NCBI GenBank assembly: GCA_028293405.1
Contig: JAQGOW010000054.1
Span: 1-9,415 of the forward strand
Reading direction: 5' to 3'
Length of the DNA stretch: 9,415 nucleotides
Source of the DNA: Verrucomicrobiales bacterium
GTDB taxonomy: Bacteria > Verrucomicrobiota > Verrucomicrobiia > Limisphaerales > Palsa-1400
Shown: piece by piece, positions 1 through 9,415 of the stretch
Layout: the number at the start of each line of letters is the position of its first letter
Position numbering within the stretch: position 1 is the first letter of the stretch
Position numbers and translations under genes: made by a program
Notes under the pieces: model-generated
Seen by the model: the letters and a program-made list of their open reading frames with translations, nothing else
Told to the model about the DNA's origin: nothing
Database searches by the model: none

Positions 1-2518
1 TCGTTTCAGGACCGTTGGTGATTTCGACGACTGCCGCCTCGATGCCGCCGGCTTGTTGTTGTGTATTTGCACCGGAAGCGGTCAGACCTGCTTTGAATAG
101 TTCAACGGAGACGTTCAGGGTACACGCGGCCACAAGTTTCAGTTTTATTTGCGTAGGCCGTCCATTGGTTACTTCCACCTGGAGCGGCATCGGTTCAGTC
201 GCAACGCGGTTCATGCCGATGCTCTTTTGGTCCAGACGAAGCTTGTAGCTCCCGGGCTTGAGACCAGGCAGCTCGAACTCGCCGTTTGCGCCTGAAACCG
301 CGGCGGCGCCATCCCATCTGAGGACGGCGCGCGGCACAGGTTGCAGCAGCGAGTCATCTGATTCGAAGATTTTTCCACGAATAGAGCCGACGTTTTGTTT
401 CTTACGAATCGGCAAACTTAGCGGGATCGTGTAGCTGATGAACGCAGATGTCTCATTTCTGTGCGTGACATCGTCGCCGATCCAACGCCCGCCGAGAGCG
501 ACTGAGTGCCCATTCCTGAACGTGTAACTGGCAGTCACGTAAGCTGTGTTTTGTTCGTGAGCGACGGTAGAGTCGTAACGATTTTTCGCGAAGCTCGCAT
601 CCACGGTGAGTCGATGAAAGAGCAACCACTTCGCAGACACCCCAAGTGTGGTAGAGCGTTGGGCGCCAGAGATAAAGTATGACGAACCGAACGTGCCAAA
701 GGCCGAATAACTTTGAGACGCCGACGGAGAGTAGGTGAGGTAAAGTCCCGTACGTTCTACGTTATGGTCCTTGCCTGTGAGTTTGTCCTCTGCCACTCCG
801 CCTTCAAGAAAGCCTTGCACACTCAATCTTCCGAAGCTGTGCCCGATACCGAGACGAGCGGAGTTTTCTTCGAGATTGAATTCGGTTGGCTTGAGCATGT
901 CCTGGCGGAGGATATGTCTATATTGCAGCGTCAGGTCCGTGCGCGAAGAGAGGTTATAGAGTAATCCGGGCTGGATCAGCGTCTCATGGTTTGCGACCGG
1001 ACTGCGAGATGGATCATGGGCGAGATTGCTCTCGTAATCGTTGTAGGAAAAATTCCCGCGCAGCCGTTTGTAAATGGGAAAGGCAACGGTGCCATAGGTC
1101 GATGCGGAGTTGTTGTAATAACCAAAGTAGCGCGGTTGCGCGTAGATGCGTTCCAGTGAGTAGTCGACTCCGGACAGCTGTCCTTTGAATTGTGCGCGAT
1201 ACGCGCGATTCTGGTCATGGCCCGGTTGATCACTGTCCGAAAAACCGTATTCAAAGTCGATGTCGAGCGCTTTGCCAAGATGCAACTGCGGCTGAAAGCT
1301 ATAAATGTTCGCCGGCAATGCGTTCGTCAGAAAGCCTGAGTGCCCCTCCTTCGCCAGAAAGTTCGCGCGCATCGTGAATAGATGTGTGAAGTCCTGTTGA
1401 ACAAAGCTGCCGATCTCGTTGAAGGTTTCTTTGCGCCAGCGGCTCTCGAAATAGAACGCGCCCGCGGCTGTATTGGTGCGGTGAAGGTCCACTTCTGCGC
1501 CGCGACCGTAGCCGTAACGTTCGGTCAGCGGTGACAGCGTGTAATTGCGGTCGCCGACGTGGACATCCATCAATTGGTCGAAGTAGCTGACCCGGTATTC
1601 ATCGCGCAACCCGAACGCGTCGCTCTTGCTCAGGGTGTCTGGACCGCGCAGAAGGAAATCAATCTTCTGTGTGCCCTGCTCGTTCAAGTTTCCGGCTCCA
1701 GAAAATTCCATTTGAAAACCTGCGCCACGCCCACTTTGACCCACGCCGGTGAAGCGCATTTGGGCGGGCAATCGAAACCACGGATCACTGTCCCCCGTGA
1801 TTTTAGGAACTATCTCAACCAACAAAGTGCGCGATACTGGTTCTTTCATCGACGACGTTTCAGCAGTGACTTTAAGCGATTGCGTGATCCGTTTGTTCAG
1901 CGTGGCATCGGTGTCAACCGTCACACGAACTGTCTGAGAGTCGCCGGCACCGAGTTCGATGGCTGGATGCTCGATCTGAAACGGGTAAGTCGGCGCACTT
2001 TGGACGTGCAACTTTATCGATTCGCGGCTGTTGCCGCGATTAATCACTTTAACGTGAGTCTCGTAGGTGTCGCCGGCGACAACCAGCGACGGTTTGTCAA
2101 CGAAGAGCACTTCCACTTTGGTGACTGGAAGAATATGGACTGTGAGGGGCGCACTATCAGTAACAGCGTAGTCCTTGCGGCTTTTAATGCCGTAGCGAAT
2201 CTCGTGCTCGCCTGATGCGGCATTCAACGGCACGGAAATGACAACGACACGGACCTGCTGTTCGTTGGGGTGGAGTTGGAACGGCTGGTCAATTGGCGCG
2301 ATCTTCTGCCAACCTTCGGGGAGAGTAATGTCCTCGACGAACTGTTCGTCCCGTGAAAGTTGGCTCGAAACGGCGAAGCTCGCCGTCACGATCTTGCCCG
2401 GCGTGAGTTCGGGCTCTCGCGCAGTGGCCAAACGAACTATCACGCCGTGCTGTTGCGCCAGCAAAGGCAACGACAACAGCAGGAACAACAGCACGACGCA
2501 TATTCCGGTTCTATTCAA
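1..2518 (-). CDS. Usher-like outer-membrane beta-barrel protein (3' end outside window)
   Basis: This frame stays open from 2518 to the window edge, giving at least 839 residues. There is no ATG near its start. An in-frame TGA lies two codons upstream of TTG 2518, and TTG gives a good signal peptide (MNRTGI, then a Leu-rich core, LLA-QQ cleavage near residue 21). That TTG overlaps the stop of the preceding gene by 8 nt, suggesting translational coupling. Residues about 25-130 and 131-240 look like two Ig-like/NEW3-type domains (second begins near VEVLFVDKPSLVVAGD). Residues about 245-705 show alternating, aromatic-rich strands typical of a beta-barrel, with the segment VGDRNYTLSPLTERYGYGRG at 321-340. 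Residues about 710-795 resemble a carboxypeptidase-regulatory/SdrD-B-like domain (GSIRGKIFES, GANGEFELPGLKPGSYKLRLD). By context it is the likely export pore for the two small secreted proteins. The Ig-barrel-Ig order recalls fimbrial ushers, but I see no clear canonical usher signature. A general barrel transporter is the alternative. Confidence 0.8.
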   Translation of the reverse strand, partial: MNRTGICVVLLFLLLSLPLLAQQHGVIVRLATAREPELTPGKIVTASFAVSSQLSRDEQFVEDITLPEGWQKIAPIDQPFQLHPNEQQVRVVVISVPLNAASGEHEIRYGIKSRKDYAVTDSAPLTVHILPVTKVEVLFVDKPSLVVAGDTYETHVKVINRGNSRESIKLHVQSAPTYPFQIEHPAIELGAGDSQTVRVTVDTDATLNKRITQSLKVTAETSSMKEPVSRTLLVEIVPKITGDSDPWFRLPAQMRFTGVGQSGRGAGFQMEFSGAGNLNEQGTQKIDFLLRGPDTLSKSDAFGLRDEYRVSYFDQLMDVHVGDRNYTLSPLTERYGYGRGAEVDLHRTNTAAGAFYFESRWRKETFNEIGSFVQQDFTHLFTMRANFLAKEGHSGFLTNALPANIYSFQPQLHLGKALDIDFEYGFSDSDQPGHDQNRAYRAQFKGQLSGVDYSLERIYAQPRYFGYYNNSASTYGTVAFPIYKRLRGNFSYNDYESNLAHDPSRSPVANHETLIQPGLLYNLSSRTDLTLQYRHILRQDMLKPTEFNLEENSARLGIGHSFGRLSVQGFLEGGVAEDKLTGKDHNVERTGLYLTYSPSASQSYSAFGTFGSSYFISGAQRSTTLGVSAKWLLFHRLTVDASFAKNRYDSTVAHEQNTAYVTASYTFRNGHSVALGGRWIGDDVTHRNETSAFISYTIPLSLPIRKKQNVGSIRGKIFESDDSLLQPVPRAVLRWDGAAAVSGANGEFELPGLKPGSYKLRLDQKSIGMNRVATEPMPLQVEVTNGRPTQIKLKLVAACTLNVSVELFKAGLTASGANTQQQAGGIEAAVVEITNGPET

Positions 2519-3314
2519 GATTCAGTTGATATTGAGCGGCCATGACCTGGTCGCCGCCACCGTCCATGACGAGTAGCGCGGTGTAATCGCCTTTCGGAGC
2601 TTTCGAGAAGTCGAGCAAATGGCGGACCGAACAGCCCGGATAGATGCGTGCTTTGTTCGATTGAAACTTTCCGATGGAGGCTCCTTTGGCATCAAAAAGC
2701 TCCGCCCAGACCGCCGGAATCAACAGTTTTTCACCTGTGTTTTCCAAGTCGACCTGAAGCGTTTGCCTGCCTTCAGCTTTGAGCAACTTTCTACCGGCAA
2801 CTTTGAGATTCGGTCGTCCGCCGGGCACTTCAGTGACGATTTGGACAGCGAAACGGATTACCGAATGAATGCCCAGTTTGTGATCGGGATCCTTCGGGTC
2901 GATGGACGAAGGGGGTGGCGTGGCGGGTTCCACCACGATGATGCTCCAGTAGGTGCCGTTCAAAAGAGGGTTGGCAGGCGCAGTTCCCCGATAGTGGACG
3001 GATAGCGACTCGTGCGGGCGAACCGTAAGCCGGGGTGGACTGACGGTAAACCAACCGGCGTTGGAACGCGGCGCACTGCCGGGATCGCCATAAGTGTTCT
3101 GGCCATTGGCAAGGAAGAGATAATCACGTTGATGAATACGGACGTCCGCGGCGGTATCACCGTTGTTCTGAACCATGATATCGCCTTCAAAAGTTTTTCC
3201 TGGCTCGACATCCTGCGTGCGCGCCAAACTGCCGACGACGGAGATCCCACCGAAAAGTGAATGCTGGAGGAGCAGCCAGCAGGTGAGTTGAATGATGGAG
3301 AATTTAAGTTTCAT
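2511..3314 (-). CDS. Secreted two-Ig-domain protein, candidate periplasmic pilus chaperone
   Basis: A 267-residue protein with an N-terminal signal peptide (MKLKFSIIQ, then a hydrophobic core to about residue 27). Domain 1 (about 32-163) opens with VEPGKTFEGDIMVQNNGD and contains WFTVSPPRLTVRPHESLSV (88-106) and LNGTYWSIIVVEP (118-130). This combines a PapD-like 'SPPRLTV+P' strand with a layout also known from DUF916-type surface-protein-binding proteins. Domain 2 (about 167-267, from NLKVAGRKLL) is a second beta-sandwich with ENTGEKLLIPAVWAELFD. The size and two-domain plan fit fimbrial chaperones (about 230-270 residues), though the canonical chaperone Arg/Lys anchoring pair cannot be assigned by eye. 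The start lies 3 nt after the stop of the upstream secreted subunit, and its stop overlaps the start of the barrel gene. This places it in the same translation unit between subunits and candidate usher. No clear Shine-Dalgarno site is visible, so coupling is likely. Confidence 0.85.
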   Translation of the reverse strand: MKLKFSIIQLTCWLLLQHSLFGGISVVGSLARTQDVEPGKTFEGDIMVQNNGDTAADVRIHQRDYLFLANGQNTYGDPGSAPRSNAGWFTVSPPRLTVRPHESLSVHYRGTAPANPLLNGTYWSIIVVEPATPPPSSIDPKDPDHKLGIHSVIRFAVQIVTEVPGGRPNLKVAGRKLLKAEGRQTLQVDLENTGEKLLIPAVWAELFDAKGASIGKFQSNKARIYPGCSVRHLLDFSKAPKGDYTALLVMDGGGDQVMAAQYQLNLE

Positions 3315-3317
3315 GAG

Positions 3318-3779
3318 CTATTCGAGAGTAAAAACTACGGAGGTGTTATAGCTGGCCGGTGAAAGAGTTGTTGAGACGCCGACGATTTCGAATTGCAGGC
3401 TGACGTAGGAACGATCGCCGGCACCGGAACAAATTTGGGCGTCGATGTTTGACAGATCCACGTACGGCTCCCCACCAGTGACGTAGCCGGTACCCGAACC
3501 GTCGCCGCACCGTCTGACGCGCAAGCCGACATTGCTGTGCCATAGTCCTCCGGACCGACGGACTTTTAGCCGCCAAGCCCCGCCGGACGTGTTACTAACG
3601 GAGACTAACGTCACGCCGACGGGACTTTCATGCTGGGAAATGAGGTGGGAGCCCGCGCCGCGGGACAGATCCGCTGCGTTGATTTGCCGTGTCCAGTCAC
3701 CACTGGTAACAAGGTCTGCAGCAGTCGCCCGGCTCAACAACGACGCGAGCATTAGGAGGGCTGTTGGAAGATGTCTCAT
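3318..3779 (-). CDS. Small secreted beta-rich protein, candidate minor pilin/adhesin subunit
   Basis: A 153-residue protein starting MRHLPTALLML with a signal peptide and an AxA site (ATA at 18-20), so the mature chain probably begins ADLVTSGDW. The mature part is Gly/Ser/Val-rich with alternating hydrophobic residues. It has two cysteines (C91 and C117) that could form a disulfide across the loop YVTGGEPYVDLSNIDAQIC. The C-terminus (SYVSLQFEIVGV, then SPASYNTSVVFTLE) ends in a beta-strand of the kind found at the end of spore-coat-U/Csu-like and other pilin subunits. I do not recognise a specific family. It sits downstream of the larger subunit gene and its hairpin, and 3 nt upstream of the candidate chaperone, so a lower-abundance tip or minor subunit is a reasonable inference. 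An AGGA lies almost directly against the ATG, too close for a standard ribosome-binding site. A second ATG at codon 10 would shorten the signal peptide and is less likely. Confidence 0.78.
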   Translation of the reverse strand: MRHLPTALLMLASLLSRATAADLVTSGDWTRQINAADLSRGAGSHLISQHESPVGVTLVSVSNTSGGAWRLKVRRSGGLWHSNVGLRVRRCGDGSGTGYVTGGEPYVDLSNIDAQICSGAGDRSYVSLQFEIVGVSTTLSPASYNTSVVFTLE

Positions 3780-3800
3780 TTCCTATGAACAAAATTCGGA

Positions 3801-3828
3801 GAAGAGGCGGGAACAGTCCCGCCTCTTC
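3801..3828 (-). terminator. Perfect 12-bp-stem hairpin after the first subunit gene
   Basis: GAAGAGGCGGGA at 3801-3812 pairs without mismatch with TCCCGCCTCTTC at 3817-3828 across a 4-nt loop. On the minus strand the stem is followed a few bases later by a short TTTT run (within 3781-3800). It lies 12 nt past the stop of the 161-residue subunit gene and before the next gene. The T-run is short and not adjacent to the stem, so it may act as a partial terminator and/or a 3' mRNA stabiliser rather than a full stop. Such hairpins after the major pilin gene are known in fimbrial operons, where they raise subunit mRNA over downstream genes. Confidence 0.75.
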
Positions 3829-3840
3829 AATGTGTAAGGG

Positions 3841-4326
3841 TTACGATCCGGCAGTAACAGTGAAGGTCACTGTTTTGCTGTCTGACGAAACTACACCCGC
3901 TGCAGAGGTAGCATTGAACTTGTAGGTGATGCTCTTGCCGCTTTCGTTGAGCGTGGAGATGCCGCAGACCACGTCGGAAGCCGATGTACCGAGGACCACG
4001 TCGCCCGCGCTGGTGGCGCCGGTTGGAGCGGCGAGGTTCACTTTCAGTGTGGTGCCAGCGGCCATGGCCGTGTCGATCTGAGCCGTGATCTTGCGATCTG
4101 ATTCGTTGGAAGTGATCGCATAACTGGTGCTCGAGTCCTGGACGCCATCGGGAGCGTTGCCGGCCGTTGCGGTGCTGATAACCAATGCACCTGGATTGCC
4201 GCTGACCGAGATTTCGTTGATTGCCTGCACTTCGAACGAGACCGTTTGTTGTGCTGTGTTGCCCGCCATGACACAGAGACCTGAACCGATTAAGCCGAGG
4301 GCGATTAGACTGCTAAGTGTTTTCAT
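3841..4326 (-). CDS. Secreted beta-rich subunit, candidate major pilin/surface coat protein
   Basis: A 161-residue protein beginning MKTLSSLIALGLIGSGL with a typical signal peptide, probably cleaved near VMA-G (residue 21). The mature chain starts NTAQQTVSFEVQAINEISVS, a strand-like N-terminus that could serve as a donor strand, and is rich in Ala, Thr, Ser, Val and Gly with almost no aromatic residues. Repeated short beta-strand segments end in KTVTFTVTAGS. There is one mature cysteine (C121). The reading frame is open upstream to an ATG at 4473, but that extension is Cys/Arg-rich, crosses a candidate operator and would bury the signal peptide, so the 4326 start is preferred. It is the first gene of the secreted-protein operon and is followed directly by a strong hairpin, which fits an abundantly made structural subunit. 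I recognise the general look of secreted beta-sandwich surface proteins but cannot name a family. Confidence 0.82.
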   Translation of the reverse strand: MKTLSSLIALGLIGSGLCVMAGNTAQQTVSFEVQAINEISVSGNPGALVISTATAGNAPDGVQDSSTSYAITSNESDRKITAQIDTAMAAGTTLKVNLAAPTGATSAGDVVLGTSASDVVCGISTLNESGKSITYKFNATSAAGVVSSDSKTVTFTVTAGS

Positions 4327-4370
4327 TATTATGGATGTATTATTTATTATTACGTTTATTTCTGTTTTCT
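4327..4370 (-). promoter_or_regulatory. A/T-rich leader without Shine-Dalgarno site
   Basis: The 44 nt directly before the ATG of the candidate major subunit are almost entirely A/T on the minus strand (ACGTAATAATAAATAATAC...) and contain no GGAGG-like site. A weak 5-bp stem (TTGCG/CGCAA, 4371-4384) lies just upstream. Unstructured A-rich leaders of this kind commonly support S1-dependent initiation in lineages that use few Shine-Dalgarno sites. A role as an efficient translation start for an abundant protein is inference. Confidence 0.45.
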
Positions 4371-4446
4371 TTGCGCATCCGCAAGCGCGGCGCGCACGGT
4401 TGCAAATAGCAGCACTAACGCCACAACCACTGCACTTCCGATGATA

Positions 4447-4493
4447 CCTACACGTGTAGGCGTAGTCCGACATTCAGAGCCTAAAGGTGTAGG
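4447..4493. promoter_or_regulatory. Duplicated 14-bp dyad, candidate operator of the surface-protein operon
   Basis: CCTACACGTGTAGG at 4447-4460 is a perfect 14-bp palindrome. A second copy, CCTAAAGGTGTAGG at 4480-4493, differs at two positions. The copies start 33 bp apart, close to three helical turns, and lie about 120-170 bp upstream of the candidate major-subunit start. Two similar dyads on the same DNA face in front of an operon are typical of sites for a dimeric regulator. Which regulator binds is unknown. I could not assign convincing -35/-10 boxes between these sites and the gene. Confidence 0.5.
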
Positions 4494-4821
4494 ACAGCAG
4501 CGAAGATCAGCTGAATTTTGGCAGGGTGCGAGCAACCGACGCTCAGGCTAAGCGAACGTTTCTGTGTGTCGGGTTGGCAGGGTTCGCAATTTCAGGAATT
4601 TCCGGCAGGTCAGAAGCGAAAGGACAAAGAAAGGACTGTTGATTTTGCTGGCAGTTCGCGGAACGTGGTGCTGCCGTGTCCGCGCTTTCACGCTTACTAA
4701 ACCCGTACGAGCACACAGGATTCGAAGGTTATTCGCAACGTTGTTCGATGCGGGTGAACGCGGTCGCTTAATGGCCCTGGCCGTGATCGCTTTCCCTTTT
4801 GTAAGCGCTCGTAAGCGCCCA
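4494..4821. other. Non-coding stretch between regulator and surface operon
   Basis: About 330 nt with no supportable gene on either strand. It holds the 3' flank of the response-regulator gene, including a tandem repeat at 4801-4820, and probably part of the promoter region of the surface operon. Short plus-strand frames here lack plausible starts or domains. I see no tRNA, no strong terminator and no clear remnant of another gene. Confidence 0.5.
4801..4820. repeat. Tandem 10-bp repeat next to the regulator stop codon
   Basis: GTAAGCGCTC (4801-4810) is followed immediately by GTAAGCGCCC (4811-4820), one mismatch apart, starting 1 nt after the stop of the single-domain response regulator. 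The first copy contains the self-complementary core AGCGCT, so a small stem is possible, with a T-run too weak on the minus strand to call a terminator. Confidence 0.5.
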
Positions 4822-5268
4822 CTAAGGAGATGGCTGAGGTGTTTCGGTGGCGATGCCCAATACCTTCTTGATTGTGTTATAATCTTCCGGTTTCAAAGGC
4901 TTCGACATAAAGTGCTGCACGCCCACCTTCTTGAATTTTGCAGCGGACTTTGACGGCTCTCCTCCACTGGCGCCTATCACGTGGAGGTCCACTTGCGCTT
5001 TCGTGAGCCACTTAGCGACTTCCGGCCCCTCAACGTTCGGCATGTTCAGGTCCAGAATGATGAGCTCAGGTAACGGTTGAGCCCACGAACCTAACGTAAA
5101 ACAGACGGTCAAGTAATCGATCAACATCGCACCGTCCAAAAGATGGTGAATCGGGTTTTGAACACCCCAGGCTTCGATAACTCCCCTCAGCGTCTGAGCA
5201 AAAACCACATCATCATCGACGATAAGAATTGGGCGCGCAGTCTTAACAGAATTAGTAGGTAAAGTCAT
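4822..5268 (-). CDS. Single-domain response regulator (CheY/Rcp1-like receiver)
   Basis: A 148-residue protein made of one receiver domain and no output domain. The first strand ILIVDDD carries the acidic pair D18/D19. The phospho-acceptor is D73 in LIILDLNMPN (69-78), and the conserved lysine is K123 in FMSKPLKP (120-127). The long insert between D45 and D73 (DGAMLIDYLTVCFTLGSWAQPLPE) resembles Rcp1-type receivers, where a helix 'DGxxAIxYL' precedes the acceptor strand. The fourth strand reads LHVIGASGGE, where the usual Thr/Ser switch residue appears to be Gly (G99), so signal propagation may be altered. F120 occupies the aromatic switch position. It lies downstream of the histidine kinase and the broken receiver gene on the same strand and is the only intact receiver here, so it is the likely phosphotransfer partner of that kinase. 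With no DNA-binding domain it would act by protein contact or in a phosphorelay. Its ribosome-binding site is weak. Confidence 0.93.
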   Translation of the reverse strand: MTLPTNSVKTARPILIVDDDVVFAQTLRGVIEAWGVQNPIHHLLDGAMLIDYLTVCFTLGSWAQPLPELIILDLNMPNVEGPEVAKWLTKAQVDLHVIGASGGEPSKSAAKFKKVGVQHFMSKPLKPEDYNTIKKVLGIATETPQPSP

Positions 5269-5269
5269 A

Positions 5270-5617
5270 TTGTCCGGTTGTCTTCATTTTGTGCAGATAA
5301 GTGTTTTCAATACTTCTGCGAGCTGAAGTTCCATAAAGGTTACGCGAGGCTTCTATGGACGTCCAGCCTCCTCGCCATGAACTGCAAAATCCTTTCAAAG
5401 TGAGCGCGTTGTTTGCGGATTGCGCGCAGGTCTGCCAGCACTGCCGCTTCCGCAGCGTCGAAGTCGTTTTCGTTTGAATCGACGTTAACGATTTTACGAA
5501 AGTCTTGATGAATTGCTTCATTGTCATCAACGATGAGAATGCGACGATTTTTGTTCCAACCCCCAACGGGCTGTGAACCTTCACTGAGCTGTCGGCTCGT
5601 GTTGTTCGCATAGACAT
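5270..5617 (-). pseudogene. Frameshifted and truncated response-regulator receiver gene
   Basis: A clear receiver N-terminus (NRRILIVDDNEAIHQDFRKI, then DAAEAAVLADLRAIRKQ) is encoded in the frame that ends at the TAA at 5340-5342, but this frame has no start codon after the kinase stop. ATG 5617, 5 nt after that stop, opens a different frame (MSMRTTRADSSV) that would join the receiver frame if the G5 run (minus strand; C5 at 5560-5564) had one more base. Downstream, acceptor-strand features expected after this N-terminus are missing. Other frames keep faint likeness to later receiver parts (GEEAGRP, then LQLAEVLKTLICT where family members often have an LW...ICTAYSD segment). This N-terminal type is usual for larger regulators in Verrucomicrobiota and related groups. 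I infer a decayed gene between kinase and intact regulator; a sequencing error could explain only the first break. Confidence 0.65.
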
Positions 5618-5622
5618 GAAAT

Positions 5623-8600
5623 TTATTTGTGGTCGCTACCCAGTGGGAGCGACAGGGTGAAAGTAGCGCCCGTTCCGACGCCATCACTTTTGACAGCAAG
5701 CGAGCCACCCATTTCCCGAGCGGCAATTGCGCCGCTGTGCAAGCCGAAGCCATGGCCATCCTTTTTGGTGGTGAATCGATGGCCAAAGATGCGGGTGAGA
5801 TTCTCGGGCGGAATTCCAATGCCGTTGTCGATGACGCTCAACGCGACATGGTCAGGGCCGCTGGCGATCCGAAGGATCAACTGCTTGTCGTCGCGGCCAC
5901 TGTCTGTGAGCGCATGTTTTGCATTGCGGATGAGGTTGACAAGGATTTGCAGCACTTTGTGCTTATCGACAGTAATCGTTGGCGCGTCCACAATTTGGCG
6001 AATGACTTTGACGCGGTGCCGCCTCAAAGCGCCCTCATTCAGGCGCAGGGCATCTTCGAGCAGTTGCTGAATCGGCAATGTCTCTCGATTACCTCCGACG
6101 TCGCGCGCGTAACTTTGCTGCATGGTGATAACGCTCTTGATGTGCTCGATGTTGGCGGTAAGCGATTGGACTTCTTCGAGCACGGCCTTTTGCTCTTCAG
6201 AAAGTCGGACAGCAAGTTTGCTCAGAAACTCCGGCAATTTCTTTCCCGCAGGATCGGTCGTTAAAAATTCGGAAAGATCGCCGGCATGTGCGCTCAACAA
6301 TTCTGCCGTTTTGGTCACACTGCTGATCCGTGTGTTGCGGACTTTTTCGGAAATGATCGAGCAGGAAACATTTACACTGTTCAAAACGTTTCCAACGTTA
6401 TGGAGCACGCTGGTCGCGACTTCTGACATGCCGGCCTGGCGAGACGCCTCGCGCAATTGGCGGTTAGCTTCTTCCAATGCTGCCTCTGCTGTTTTTCGCT
6501 GCGTGATGTCACTGCCGATACCAGTGAGGCGAATCACTTTGCCATCAGCATCCCGGACTTGAAATCCACGGTCATGGACCCACCGAACCGTGCCATCAGG
6601 ACGCAGTATCCGATATTCCAGGCTCACCTGCGGCTCATCTTTCATCAAAGTGGCGAAGACGGATAAGACACGCTCACGGTCATCGGGAAATAGAGAGTCT
6701 TCCCAATCCTGAGGACGAGCATAGAGGTCGTCTCGTTTGCGACCCCAGATTTGTTCATAGCCAATACTGACGTACTGCATGCCTTTGAAGTCAGGTGGAG
6801 CGATCCAAAAGGTGTCGGAAATATGATCGGCCAACTGACGAAATTTCTCCTCGCTGTTACGCAGAGCTTCATCCACTGAAATTCGCGCGAGCGCGCCACC
6901 GCATTGGTCCGCCAGACTTTGTAAAGTGGCTAAATTTTGTTCCGTATAAGCGCCACGTGTGTAGCTCTGAATTGAGAGAACGCCAACGTTCTTATCCCGG
7001 TATCGAATCGGAACAAACATCAGCGAAGCGGACGGGCGAGTGGTGTCACCAACTGACATTGCGCCAGGTTGAAAAGTATCGGTATTTTCCCGCAGAATCA
7101 GCTTCCCCCCGGAATCTAAAACCTGCCGTTGTAACGCAGACGGGCGTTCACTACCAATGGGATGGTCGGCACAACGTTTTCCGTTGAACGTGTCGATCTG
7201 CAAAACCAGACGCATTTCGTCTTTATGTGGATCGTAAAGTGAGACCCAGCAAGCATCCCAGGTGAGGAGGGTATCGGAAACATCAATAATGAGCTGTGCC
7301 GCTTCTTTTGCTGACGAGGCTGAACTCAAAGCTCGACCCAGCTTTGAGAAGGCCAGTGTCGCAATTTCCGCAAGCTTTCGCTCGGTGATGTCTTGGAGAA
7401 TGCCGGCTGAGCCGGTCGGTGTTCCCTTCTCATCCAGGCTTTGGACAGAGGAATCGGATAGCCATCGCGATTTTCCATCGCGAGTCAGAACGCGCATGTC
7501 GCACCGCCACCTCTCGACTTTCCCAGTCGTCATTAGTTGGGATGCTTCCTCTTTCGACATCCCCGCCGTGTCCCCCATCATGATTGACTCTTGAACAATT
7601 CGTTTCCAGAGCTGGGCGGACACTTCACTCGTTGAATACCCAATCAACTGTTGAATTCCTTCACCCATGAAAAGGTACGAATTCGATTTGTAATCAGAGG
7701 AATAAGGGACCGCCCCTGCCCCGGCGATGGCCCGGCGATAAAGTTCTTCAGTCCGGCGCAATGCTTCCTCTGTCCGCTTTCGCTTTAGATCGCTGTCGTT
7801 GAGCTTGGCCTGCGTTTCTGACAACCAAGCCAGCACGCTGCTTTGCCGGCCGTCTTTTACCCGGATGGTGGCAGAAAAATCCCCGCTGCCCATTTTGGCA
7901 ATGCGCGCATGAACCTCGTCAACGGAGCCGCCGAGGGTGTCGATTAAGGCGGCGTAGAGACGCCAGAGCACGAACATCAATACAAGGCCAAAGGCAACAA
8001 ATACGTAGCGATAAATCAAGGACTTCTGTACCGCGGCCTGGACAGCAGCGATCGTGCGCTCGTCCACCAGCACATTAAACTCGTCAATCGGCTTCATGAT
8101 GGCGGCCTTGGCCAGATGGTAATTGGCGTCATGCAATATCCTTCGCGCGTTGGCCCGATTGCCTTTGGCCCCCGGCCCCGTGGACTCGACCAGTTTCATC
8201 GCCTCGAATTCCCGGATGGTCAGCTCGTCGGATCTCGCCTTAGCCTTCGCCAGTCGGCCAAACTCTTCCTCAGTAAACCCGGCCTGCTGCATCAACTGCA
8301 GCAACGGAATGGCTTCCTTGCTGTCCGGGCGCGGCACTTGGCCACCCACCAGCACCAAATCCCAGTAACTCCTCGAATAAGCTTCGGGCCGGGCTTTCTT
8401 TCCATCACGGATGTCTAGAATGTCCTGATAGTGTTTTTTATAAGTTGGGTCGCAGGTAACCACATACGTCCGGACCATGCGGGTCAGGTCATCCGAAGAC
8501 TGGCCCAACTCACCGGCCAGTAGAAGGGACCGCTGCCGCAGCTCATTGGCTCGATCGATTTGCTTTTCCGACCTTGCATAAAGTGCGAAGGCGATGGCCA

Positions 8601-8745
8601 GCGCAGCCGCGCAACCCACCGTGCGCCAGATGTGGTTGGCAAATCGGTTCGGCTTGGGAGTTGAGGCACTCCGACCCCCACCCCTGACCGGAAAACCGGC
8701 AGAAGTTAACTTCTGATCGACGACTGAGTTCGGGTCGGTTGGCAT
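5623..8745 (-). CDS. Membrane sensor histidine kinase (HAMP-PAS-GAF-PAS-kinase)
   Basis: A 1040-residue protein. A membrane helix at about 41-56 and a second at about 245-266 enclose a helical extracytoplasmic sensor region (about 60-243, including SSDDLTRMVRTYVV). A HAMP linker follows (about 268-320), then PAS 1 (about 330-458, ending ILQDITERK), a GAF domain (about 462-625) and PAS 2 (about 630-752, ending GSDITQRK). The dimerisation/phosphotransfer segment has the H-box VLHNVGNVLNSV with H782 as likely phospho-site, unlike the common HELRTPL form. The ATPase domain has the N-box LVNLIRNAKHAL (N937, N941), G1 box DNGIGIPP (973-980), and G2 box GHGFGLHSG (997-1005) followed by GTGATFTLSLP. 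This core type is known from kinases of Verrucomicrobiota, Planctomycetota and some proteobacteria. All catalytic boxes look intact. No receiver is fused. The start follows the preceding stop by 7 nt, with TAAGGGAAAT acting as a weak ribosome-binding site that overlaps that stop. It probably passes phosphate to the downstream single-domain regulator. Confidence 0.95.
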   Translation of the reverse strand: MPTDPNSVVDQKLTSAGFPVRGGGRSASTPKPNRFANHIWRTVGCAAALAIAFALYARSEKQIDRANELRQRSLLLAGELGQSSDDLTRMVRTYVVTCDPTYKKHYQDILDIRDGKKARPEAYSRSYWDLVLVGGQVPRPDSKEAIPLLQLMQQAGFTEEEFGRLAKAKARSDELTIREFEAMKLVESTGPGAKGNRANARRILHDANYHLAKAAIMKPIDEFNVLVDERTIAAVQAAVQKSLIYRYVFVAFGLVLMFVLWRLYAALIDTLGGSVDEVHARIAKMGSGDFSATIRVKDGRQSSVLAWLSETQAKLNDSDLKRKRTEEALRRTEELYRRAIAGAGAVPYSSDYKSNSYLFMGEGIQQLIGYSTSEVSAQLWKRIVQESIMMGDTAGMSKEEASQLMTTGKVERWRCDMRVLTRDGKSRWLSDSSVQSLDEKGTPTGSAGILQDITERKLAEIATLAFSKLGRALSSASSAKEAAQLIIDVSDTLLTWDACWVSLYDPHKDEMRLVLQIDTFNGKRCADHPIGSERPSALQRQVLDSGGKLILRENTDTFQPGAMSVGDTTRPSASLMFVPIRYRDKNVGVLSIQSYTRGAYTEQNLATLQSLADQCGGALARISVDEALRNSEEKFRQLADHISDTFWIAPPDFKGMQYVSIGYEQIWGRKRDDLYARPQDWEDSLFPDDRERVLSVFATLMKDEPQVSLEYRILRPDGTVRWVHDRGFQVRDADGKVIRLTGIGSDITQRKTAEAALEEANRQLREASRQAGMSEVATSVLHNVGNVLNSVNVSCSIISEKVRNTRISSVTKTAELLSAHAGDLSEFLTTDPAGKKLPEFLSKLAVRLSEEQKAVLEEVQSLTANIEHIKSVITMQQSYARDVGGNRETLPIQQLLEDALRLNEGALRRHRVKVIRQIVDAPTITVDKHKVLQILVNLIRNAKHALTDSGRDDKQLILRIASGPDHVALSVIDNGIGIPPENLTRIFGHRFTTKKDGHGFGLHSGAIAAREMGGSLAVKSDGVGTGATFTLSLPLGSDHK

Positions 8746-8752
8746 ATTTCCC

Positions 8753-8968
8753 TTAGTCTGCTTTTGCGATGCGTCCGACCAGCGCGAGCAGTTCGGGCTT
8801 GTTCATAGGCATCGAAACGTAGTCGTCGATGCCCGCAGCGAGGCAACGCTCAAGGTCTCCGCCCGTGGGCGTCGGCTGAGCACCGGCAAAGTGTGATATT
8901 TGCGGTTGCGACTGCGCGACATCGCAGCCGAAGCCTTTGGCATTGCCTGCGCCATAAACACACAACAT
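8753..8968 (-). pseudogene. Receiver-domain remnant (C-terminal half only)
   Basis: A 71-codon frame whose second half is plainly the end of a receiver domain: GGDLERCLAAGIDDYVSMPM, then NKPELLALVGRIAKAD. This matches the 'RCLAAGMDDYVSKP' helix-strand segment common in hybrid kinases, but the invariant Lys is replaced by Met (SMP for SKP). The acidic pocket and phospho-acceptor strand are absent. The first half (MLCVYGAGNAKGFGCDVAQ) is at most a degraded trace. It therefore cannot work as a receiver. It does have a near-ideal ribosome-binding site and ends 7 nt before the kinase start, so it may still be translated and couple to the kinase. The likely origin is a receiver gene whose 5' part was lost near the adjoining IS end. 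Confidence 0.6.
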
Positions 8969-8976
8969 TCAGATTT

Positions 8977-8981
8977 CCTCC
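8977..8981 (-). promoter_or_regulatory. Strong ribosome-binding site before the receiver remnant
   Basis: GGAGG on the minus strand, 8 nt before ATG 8968. It is the best Shine-Dalgarno match in the window, while the intact genes have weak or no sites. It supports 8968 as a real or once-real start. Confidence 0.6.
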
Positions 8982-9199
8982 ACACGAGCTTCGTCCATGT
9001 TTTAGCTGCTCTGTTTTGCAAGAAACAATCTGCCGGAACGCATCTGGTTCCGCTCCTCGCATTTTGATATAGACCGGCTCTTTTTTGCTCGCCGCACGCA
9101 AAATTGGGCAAGCGTTTCGGGGTGCAAGGGAATTTGAAATTGGAAATTTGAGATTTGAAATTGGGAGGTGGAGGGAAGCGAGGGCGAGGGGCAGTCAGA
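8982..9199. other. Scarred non-coding stretch between IS end and receiver remnant
   Basis: About 220 nt without a supportable gene. It holds a degenerate A/T repeat (9131-9162) flanked by purine-rich sequence (9164-9191) and is probably the promoter side of the kinase operon. I could not place a convincing promoter. Confidence 0.4.
9131..9162. repeat. Degenerate AATTTGAAATT short tandem repeat
   Basis: Four loosely repeated units of the type (A)ATTTGAAATT / GGAAATTTGAG fill 32 nt. The unit is partly self-complementary. Similar TTTGAAATTTGGAAATTTG strings occur between genes in several Verrucomicrobiota-type genomes; that parallel is from memory. Confidence 0.55.
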
Positions 9200-9252
9200 A
9201 CATCGGTAACACTCTTGGTTCAATACATAGGTAACACATTTGTTGTTTAGGG

Positions 9253-9415
9253 TTACACTTTTTTCTGTTTTGGTTCCTCGGTTTTGAGCCTGCCCGTACG
9301 GGCAGGCTCAAAACCGAACGTGTGCGGATCCAAATGGCCGAGCAAGAGTTTGCTGAACCATATTTCAATCAATCCGTCGGGTCGCGGTTTCAATCCCACC
9401 GACCATCCGTCCAAT
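9253..9415 (-). CDS. Transposase/integrase C-terminus (5' part outside window)
   Basis: The last 53 codons of a frame entering from the right edge: LDGWSVGLKPRPDGLIEIWF, then SKLLLGHLDPHTFGFEP, a Lys-rich tail KTEEPKQKKV and TAA. The Trp/Gly/Pro-rich stretch resembles the C-terminal tail of IS481-family DDE transposases (integrase-core group). The catalytic DDE residues lie outside the window, so activity cannot be judged. The codons for about FEPARTGRLKTE coincide with a perfect palindrome, suggesting a small palindromic insertion that kept the frame. Confidence 0.65.
   Translation of the reverse strand, partial: LDGWSVGLKPRPDGLIEIWFSKLLLGHLDPHTFGFEPARTGRLKTEEPKQKKV
9278..9317. repeat. Perfect 40-bp palindrome inside the transposase 3' end
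   Basis: Both 20-bp arms match exactly with no loop, centred between 9297 and 9298. The core is GCCTGCCCGTACGGGCAGGC and the outer arms are GGTTTTGA/TCAAAACC. It lies wholly within coding sequence, 23 nt before the stop. It could be a mobile palindromic repeat (REP-like), a hairpin terminator for the transposase mRNA, or both. The RNA form would be a very stable stem. Confidence 0.85.

Follow-up and report, generated by a model that had tools for sequence, protein, structure and literature searches.

A four-gene operon encoding predicted secreted proteins

We analysed a stretch of 9,415 nucleotides from a Verrucomicrobiales bacterium (assembly GCA_028293405.1, contig JAQGOW010000054.1), hereafter the window, which is the entire contig (C170 in our numbering, 1-9415) from a 3.85-Mb genome in 684 contigs that is estimated to be 67% complete. 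In the list of open reading frames (ORFs), four adjacent genes encode, in transcription order, subunit A, subunit B, a two-immunoglobulin (Ig)-domain protein and a barrel protein (Table 1). An initial annotation of the sequence had placed these genes at the same coordinates, leaving the strand unstated; all lie on the minus strand. It had also proposed a divergent chaperone-usher-like assembly operon, and our results support that proposal, as the gene set recurs in other genomes and both a chaperone fold and an usher-like fold are predicted. We think that the operon probably encodes a chaperone-usher-like export route that builds surface fibres. Judged by eye, all four N termini consist of a short basic segment followed by a hydrophobic stretch, resembling secretion signals. 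The barrel gene, whose start is the TTG at 2518 or a later codon, overlaps the two-Ig gene by 8 bases. Because the window ends at the contig end, the barrel protein is incomplete: its ORF runs off the contig, about 90 C-terminal residues short of a full-length relative of 926 aa. The source genome holds one chaperone copy and one subunit A match. No NCBIfam model matched the window's proteins above cut-off, and a scan for promoters and terminators returned nothing beyond chance.

Table 1. Positions of the operon's genes and of segments within their products
Feature	Position	Strand	Basis
Subunit A, small secreted beta-rich protein, 161 aa	3841..4326	-	ORF
Subunit A residues 28-41, conserved N-terminal stretch with alternating hydrophobics, candidate donor strand	4204..4245	-	24-row pattern
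Subunit B, small secreted beta-rich protein, 153 aa	3318..3779	-	ORF; 25-row alignment; predicted beta-strand model
Two-Ig-domain protein, 267 aa, WxLIP-related, likely periplasmic chaperone	2511..3314	-	
Chaperone residues 147-163, end of long F1-G1-like hairpin loop and next strand, candidate donor segment	2826..2876	-	
Usher-like outer-membrane barrel protein (predicted), 839 aa to contig end	2..2518	-	open ORF; relatives; P0102 structure model
Two N-terminal Ig-like domains, residues 40-228	1835..2401	-	NPCBM_assoc (below cut-off), FixG_C (above)
Transmembrane barrel region, about residues 247-707, predicted ~26 strands	398..1780	-	offset from P0102
First C-terminal carboxypeptidase-regulatory-like domain, residues 713-794	137..382	-	CarboxypepD_reg, sub-threshold

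The gene set recurs in many phyla

Used as query against the protein database, the two-Ig protein returned 95 proteins, the window's own included. Loci were sampled with a 12-row alignment run against a single genome of each species, which gave 170 pattern matches, 141 confirmed relatives and 80 loci that were kept; two Deinococcus plasmids, the only records matched in a plasmid search, brought the total to 82. By profile, the barrel gene was found on the chaperone's strand in 80 of the 82 loci, subunit A in 67, subunit B in 53, either subunit in 73 and both in 47, counts that are descriptive because the profiles were built partly from sequences of many of these loci. Subunits, chaperone and usher-like gene are thus encoded together, which is the co-occurrence that the initial annotation had asked to see in other genomes. 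The two loci without a barrel are L014 and L049, the latter on a contig that stops just past the chaperone, and L044 deviates in having the barrel upstream of the subunit. In a profile-independent check, 79 loci had an ORF of at least 200 aa starting no more than 700 bases from the chaperone stop. The window's barrel matched 77 of these ORFs (phmmer, E < 0.001; exceptions L003 and L023), and the start fell within -60 to +100 bases of the stop in 62 of the 79 loci. These counts led us to regard the order subunit-subunit-chaperone-barrel as a stable unit. The four genes are neighbours in the window and recur as a set in other genomes, and since each protein has relatives and the set recurs in many phyla, their association is more than chance.

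The system is not confined to one little-studied phylum, as had been suggested: 60 loci bear 17 NCBI phylum labels, including Verrucomicrobiota, Bacteroidota, Ignavibacteriota, Armatimonadota, Synergistota and Planctomycetota. Both plasmids and 20 genome loci, among them ones with KSB1, Riflebacteria and Aminicenantes titles, bear none. Single labels may be wrong, since they were taken from submitters' titles and most loci come from metagenome bins; named isolates among the carriers include Thiocapsa marina, Thiohalocapsa marina, Orenia metallireducens and Mariniphaga sediminis. On Deinococcus deserti plasmid 2 (L002, 5435-9283), a small secreted protein, a chaperone and a barrel are arranged like the window's operon, the chaperone being annotated as 'FimB/Mfa2 family fimbrial subunit' and the barrel as 'carboxypeptidase regulatory-like'.

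Among close relatives the system is rare, being found in one of six genomes of its own family (single-sequence search) and in two of 97 sampled genomes of its order (profile search); the second of these, G073, has a subunit A match, another small ORF, the chaperone and the barrel consecutively. Because of this patchiness we considered horizontal transfer. In a quick tree, the window's chaperone clustered with the four Verrucomicrobiota rows at an SH-aLRT of 96, an argument against the contig being a contaminant of a different phylum, and phylum labels were strongly clustered, with 24 changes where the minimum possible is 16 and the shuffled mean 45.8. Given this grouping and clustering, mostly vertical descent with losses appears to fit the patchiness as well as transfer does.

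The two-Ig protein is related to WxLIP and is predicted to resemble PapD-type chaperones

The two-Ig profile matched EfmWxLIP1 over 229 positions (E 5.2e-5), and the protein is, by sequence, a relative of WxLIP, which binds the wall in Gram-positive bacteria. When its predicted fold was compared with known structures, WxLIP (DUF916-DUF3324) came first and PapD-type chaperones next, with CfaA and CsuC among the best. The initial annotation's impression of a chaperone candidate mixing PapD-like and DUF916-like traits therefore agrees with both comparisons. The predicted structure has the two-domain fold of PapD-like chaperones, a boomerang-like shape that these have in common with WxLIP. Among 39 family members, Pfam WxLIP_PGBD matched nine (best E 0.0012) and WxLIP_HBD one; PapD_N matched two (best E 0.018), which does not place the protein in that Pfam chaperone family, and hhalign probabilities against E. 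coli K-12 chaperones were low throughout. WxLIP_PGBD also scored above cut-off in the control genome of Thermotoga maritima, an organism with an unusual outer sheath. The 39-row alignment contains no C-terminal hydrophobic helix, and the last residues form a beta strand in the model. The two-Ig protein is likely a periplasmic chaperone of the small subunits.

The candidate donor segment of this chaperone (Table 1) includes a modelled strand at residues 155-163 that follows a lower-confidence loop at 131-154 (numbering converted by hand). Positions 147, 149, 153, 155, 157 and 159, and also 160, are hydrophobic in 95-100% of rows, and R154 and Q158 are present in 38 of 39. The strands of chaperone and subunit B were both read from a read-through chain model with a pTM of 0.62.

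Small subunits, one with an alternating N-terminal strand

Conservation of subunit A is high, with a mean column identity of 58% across 24 rows, and the 24-row profile found 1018 relatives in the protein database at E <= 0.001. The window's subunits A and B and its two-Ig protein had no Pfam match at E <= 1. Residues 29, 31 and 33 of subunit A are hydrophobic in all 24 rows and residues 30 and 32 in none; both this first mature stretch (29-33) and the last strand (152-157) alternate strictly between hydrophobic and polar. Such alternation is the pattern expected of a candidate donor strand and a groove-flanking last strand, a resemblance that edge strands in general can share. Subunit B was predicted as beta strands, with block pLDDT values of 94-98 up to residue 130, and is weakly related to subunit A, the two profiles matching over 74 columns (hhalign 89%). 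Searches of PDB sequences with the subunit profiles gave nothing significant, no WxL family was among the Pfam families listed at E <= 1 (20 for the 24 A rows, 11 for the 25 B rows), and hhalign against E. coli K-12 fimbrial subunits reached 16-18% only. The stretches aligned in that last comparison were the N-terminal and C-terminal strands.

A predicted usher-like barrel without a plug

In the window's barrel protein, FixG_C (residues 156-228) exceeded its Pfam cut-off; NPCBM_assoc (40-111) and CarboxypepD_reg (713-794) stayed under theirs. CarboxypepD_reg was found in all 42 barrel relatives at E <= 0.1, among the 25 of 54 Pfam families listed for these proteins, and full-length relatives have a second such C-terminal domain, which in the window would lie beyond the contig end. 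Barrel relatives adjoining a chaperone are 836-1218 aa long. A SPOR domain was seen in 5 of the 42 (best E 1.5e-30), which suggests that some barrel proteins bind peptidoglycan.

The structure of the relative P0102 was modelled with a pLDDT of 89.8 and a pTM of 0.69, and its numbering differs from the window's by an offset of 5, derived from invariant columns. The barrel, at residues 242-702 by DSSP of the model, comprises about 26 strands (two short stretches at 506-519 being counted as one), preceded by an N-terminal part of two Ig-like domains and followed by two C-terminal beta domains. When the whole P0102 chain was searched with Foldseek, usher-like architecture led by several orders of magnitude, and PapC aligned over residues 236-913. 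The initial annotation had named 24 strands with a plug as support for an usher: the overall architecture is usher-like in the Foldseek comparison, but the predicted strand number is about 26 and no inserted domain is seen, the longest break between strands being about 14 residues. The barrel protein is predicted to follow the domain order of an usher, with a periplasmic N-terminal part, then the large barrel and then a pair of C-terminal beta domains; its two Ig-like domains may correspond to the usher N-terminal domain, and it has no plug in the model.

The same annotation had seen no obvious canonical usher signature, and we concur. Pfam Usher (PF00577) was above cut-off in none of 79 distinct genomes (the source genome plus sets of 49 and 30, one genome being shared), the E. 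coli control being positive, and we accordingly rejected the label of canonical usher. The single sub-threshold Usher match was to the barrel of L050. Hhalign probabilities against E. coli K-12 ushers were low throughout, and in a PDB sequence search with the barrel profile the end domains matched NOMO2 and sialidase-type domains and the barrel matched OmpG at E 0.21. By Pfam, strand number and plug, the operon falls outside the known chaperone-usher families.

Neighbouring genes

Upstream of the operon, also on the minus strand, lie a response regulator (4822-5268) and a large PAS-GAF-PAS histidine kinase (5623-8745). Short minus-strand ORFs at 5340-5819 and 8753-8968 resemble the start and end of receiver domains, and the kinase may thus be flanked by additional fragments of response regulators. 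Kinase catalytic domains occur in 22 of the 82 loci; as no background rate was estimated for this count, we make no claim about regulatory neighbours. Multi-PAS kinase genes lie downstream of the barrel gene in L005, L030, L051 and L058, and large M16 peptidase genes in L062 and L067.

A proposed assembly pathway and its alternatives

In the pathway that we propose, the WxLIP-related protein would act as the periplasmic holder of the small beta subunits before passing them to the barrel, with its own long hairpin loop serving as a donor strand for subunits that lack one. The barrel's N-terminal Ig-like and C-terminal domains would recruit chaperone-subunit complexes at the pore, where the alternating N-terminal strand of subunit A, or an equivalent, could displace the chaperone strand and so chain the subunits. 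The fibre would then exit through the pore of about 26 strands; since no plug is seen, the gate would be a periplasmic domain.

A different outcome would be a surface complex that is not a pilus: much as in the WxL clusters of Gram-positive bacteria, the WxLIP-like protein would remain attached to the small proteins and form part of an outer coat, with the barrel serving only for export or anchoring. WxLIP is indeed the closest relative in sequence and fold, and in the available text of PMC10599100 it is presented as a stable partner of WxL proteins at the surface and not as a chaperone, the words 'chaperone' and 'pilus' both being absent from that text. However, the two-Ig protein ends in a beta strand where WxLIP has a C-terminal membrane helix, the partner subunits match no WxL family among the Pfam families listed, and no WxL cluster covered by the same text offers a parallel to the fixed pairing with an usher-like barrel; we consider this outcome unlikely. 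Quite improbable, in our judgment, is that the operon belongs to the archaic or the alternative class as an ordinary chaperone-usher system that has diverged far. Ushers top the Foldseek list for the barrel, CfaA and CsuC rank high for the chaperone, one barrel has a sub-threshold Usher match, and archaic systems are also reported from Cyanobacteria and Deinococcus-Thermus (PMC4654587, in part). Such a system would, however, sit poorly with Usher above cut-off in 0 of 79 genomes, PapD_N in just 2 of 39 chaperones at E 0.018 or worse, a modelled barrel of about 26 strands without a plug, and a chaperone closer to WxLIP than to any PapD-type protein. It is very improbable that the barrel is a conduit of MtrB or porin type that takes no part in building fibres: whole-chain Foldseek prefers ushers by several orders of magnitude and the barrel is constantly partnered with subunits and chaperone. 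The MtrB-type conduit was rejected because none of the ORFs called in the 82 loci (at least 70 aa, greedy caller) contains three CXXCH motifs or more.

More tentatively, and with rather more doubt than confidence, the fibre-building route could be extended to a separate, ancient chaperone-usher class spanning at least 17 phyla, for most of which no chaperone-usher pili have been described. Its WxLIP-family chaperone and plugless 26-strand usher would make fibres by donor-strand exchange. Gram-positive WxLIP would then be a wall-bound cousin of pilus chaperones, WxL clusters and pili sharing one strand-donating ancestor. If true, the proposal would point to a fibre or coat on little-studied bacterial surfaces, in Verrucomicrobiota, the other labelled phyla named above and still others, link WxLIP to PapD-type chaperones and give a function to families without a Pfam entry, including the more than 1000 relatives of subunit A. 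It would carry the logic of the chaperone-usher route, with different proteins, beyond the phyla named in the available part of PMC4654587, and would raise the question of how an usher works without a plug.

Comparison with known systems

Our literature search, whose coverage omits most subscription journals, returned no paper joining DUF916 with chaperone-usher systems or PapD. MtrB, the 26-strand barrel of the Mtr electron conduit, differs from the present barrel, which has extra N- and C-terminal domains and whose 82 loci lack a multihaem ORF. Unlike the WxL clusters with WxLIP of Enterococcus, Lactobacillus and Listeria, this system has neither the C-terminal membrane helix nor a WxL match among the listed Pfam families, and it adds a predicted outer-membrane barrel gene. 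Most of the labelled hosts belong to phyla known for an outer membrane.

Chaperone-usher pili comprise classical (Fim, Pap), alternative or class 5 (CFA/I, Ecp) and archaic (Csu) systems. In the available part of PMC4654587, classical and alternative systems are said to occur only in beta- and gamma-proteobacteria, and the range of archaic ones is limited to Proteobacteria, Cyanobacteria and Deinococcus-Thermus. Their ushers are 24-strand barrels with a plug (PMC8410936, in part), whereas the barrel described here is predicted to have about 26 strands and no plug, carries Ig-like N-terminal domains and has no Pfam Usher match over cut-off in the 79 genomes; its subunits likewise lack a Pfam match. 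What the system shares with these pili is a set of subunits, a two-domain chaperone and a large barrel, two C-terminal beta domains on that barrel, and fold matches for both the chaperone and the whole usher chain.
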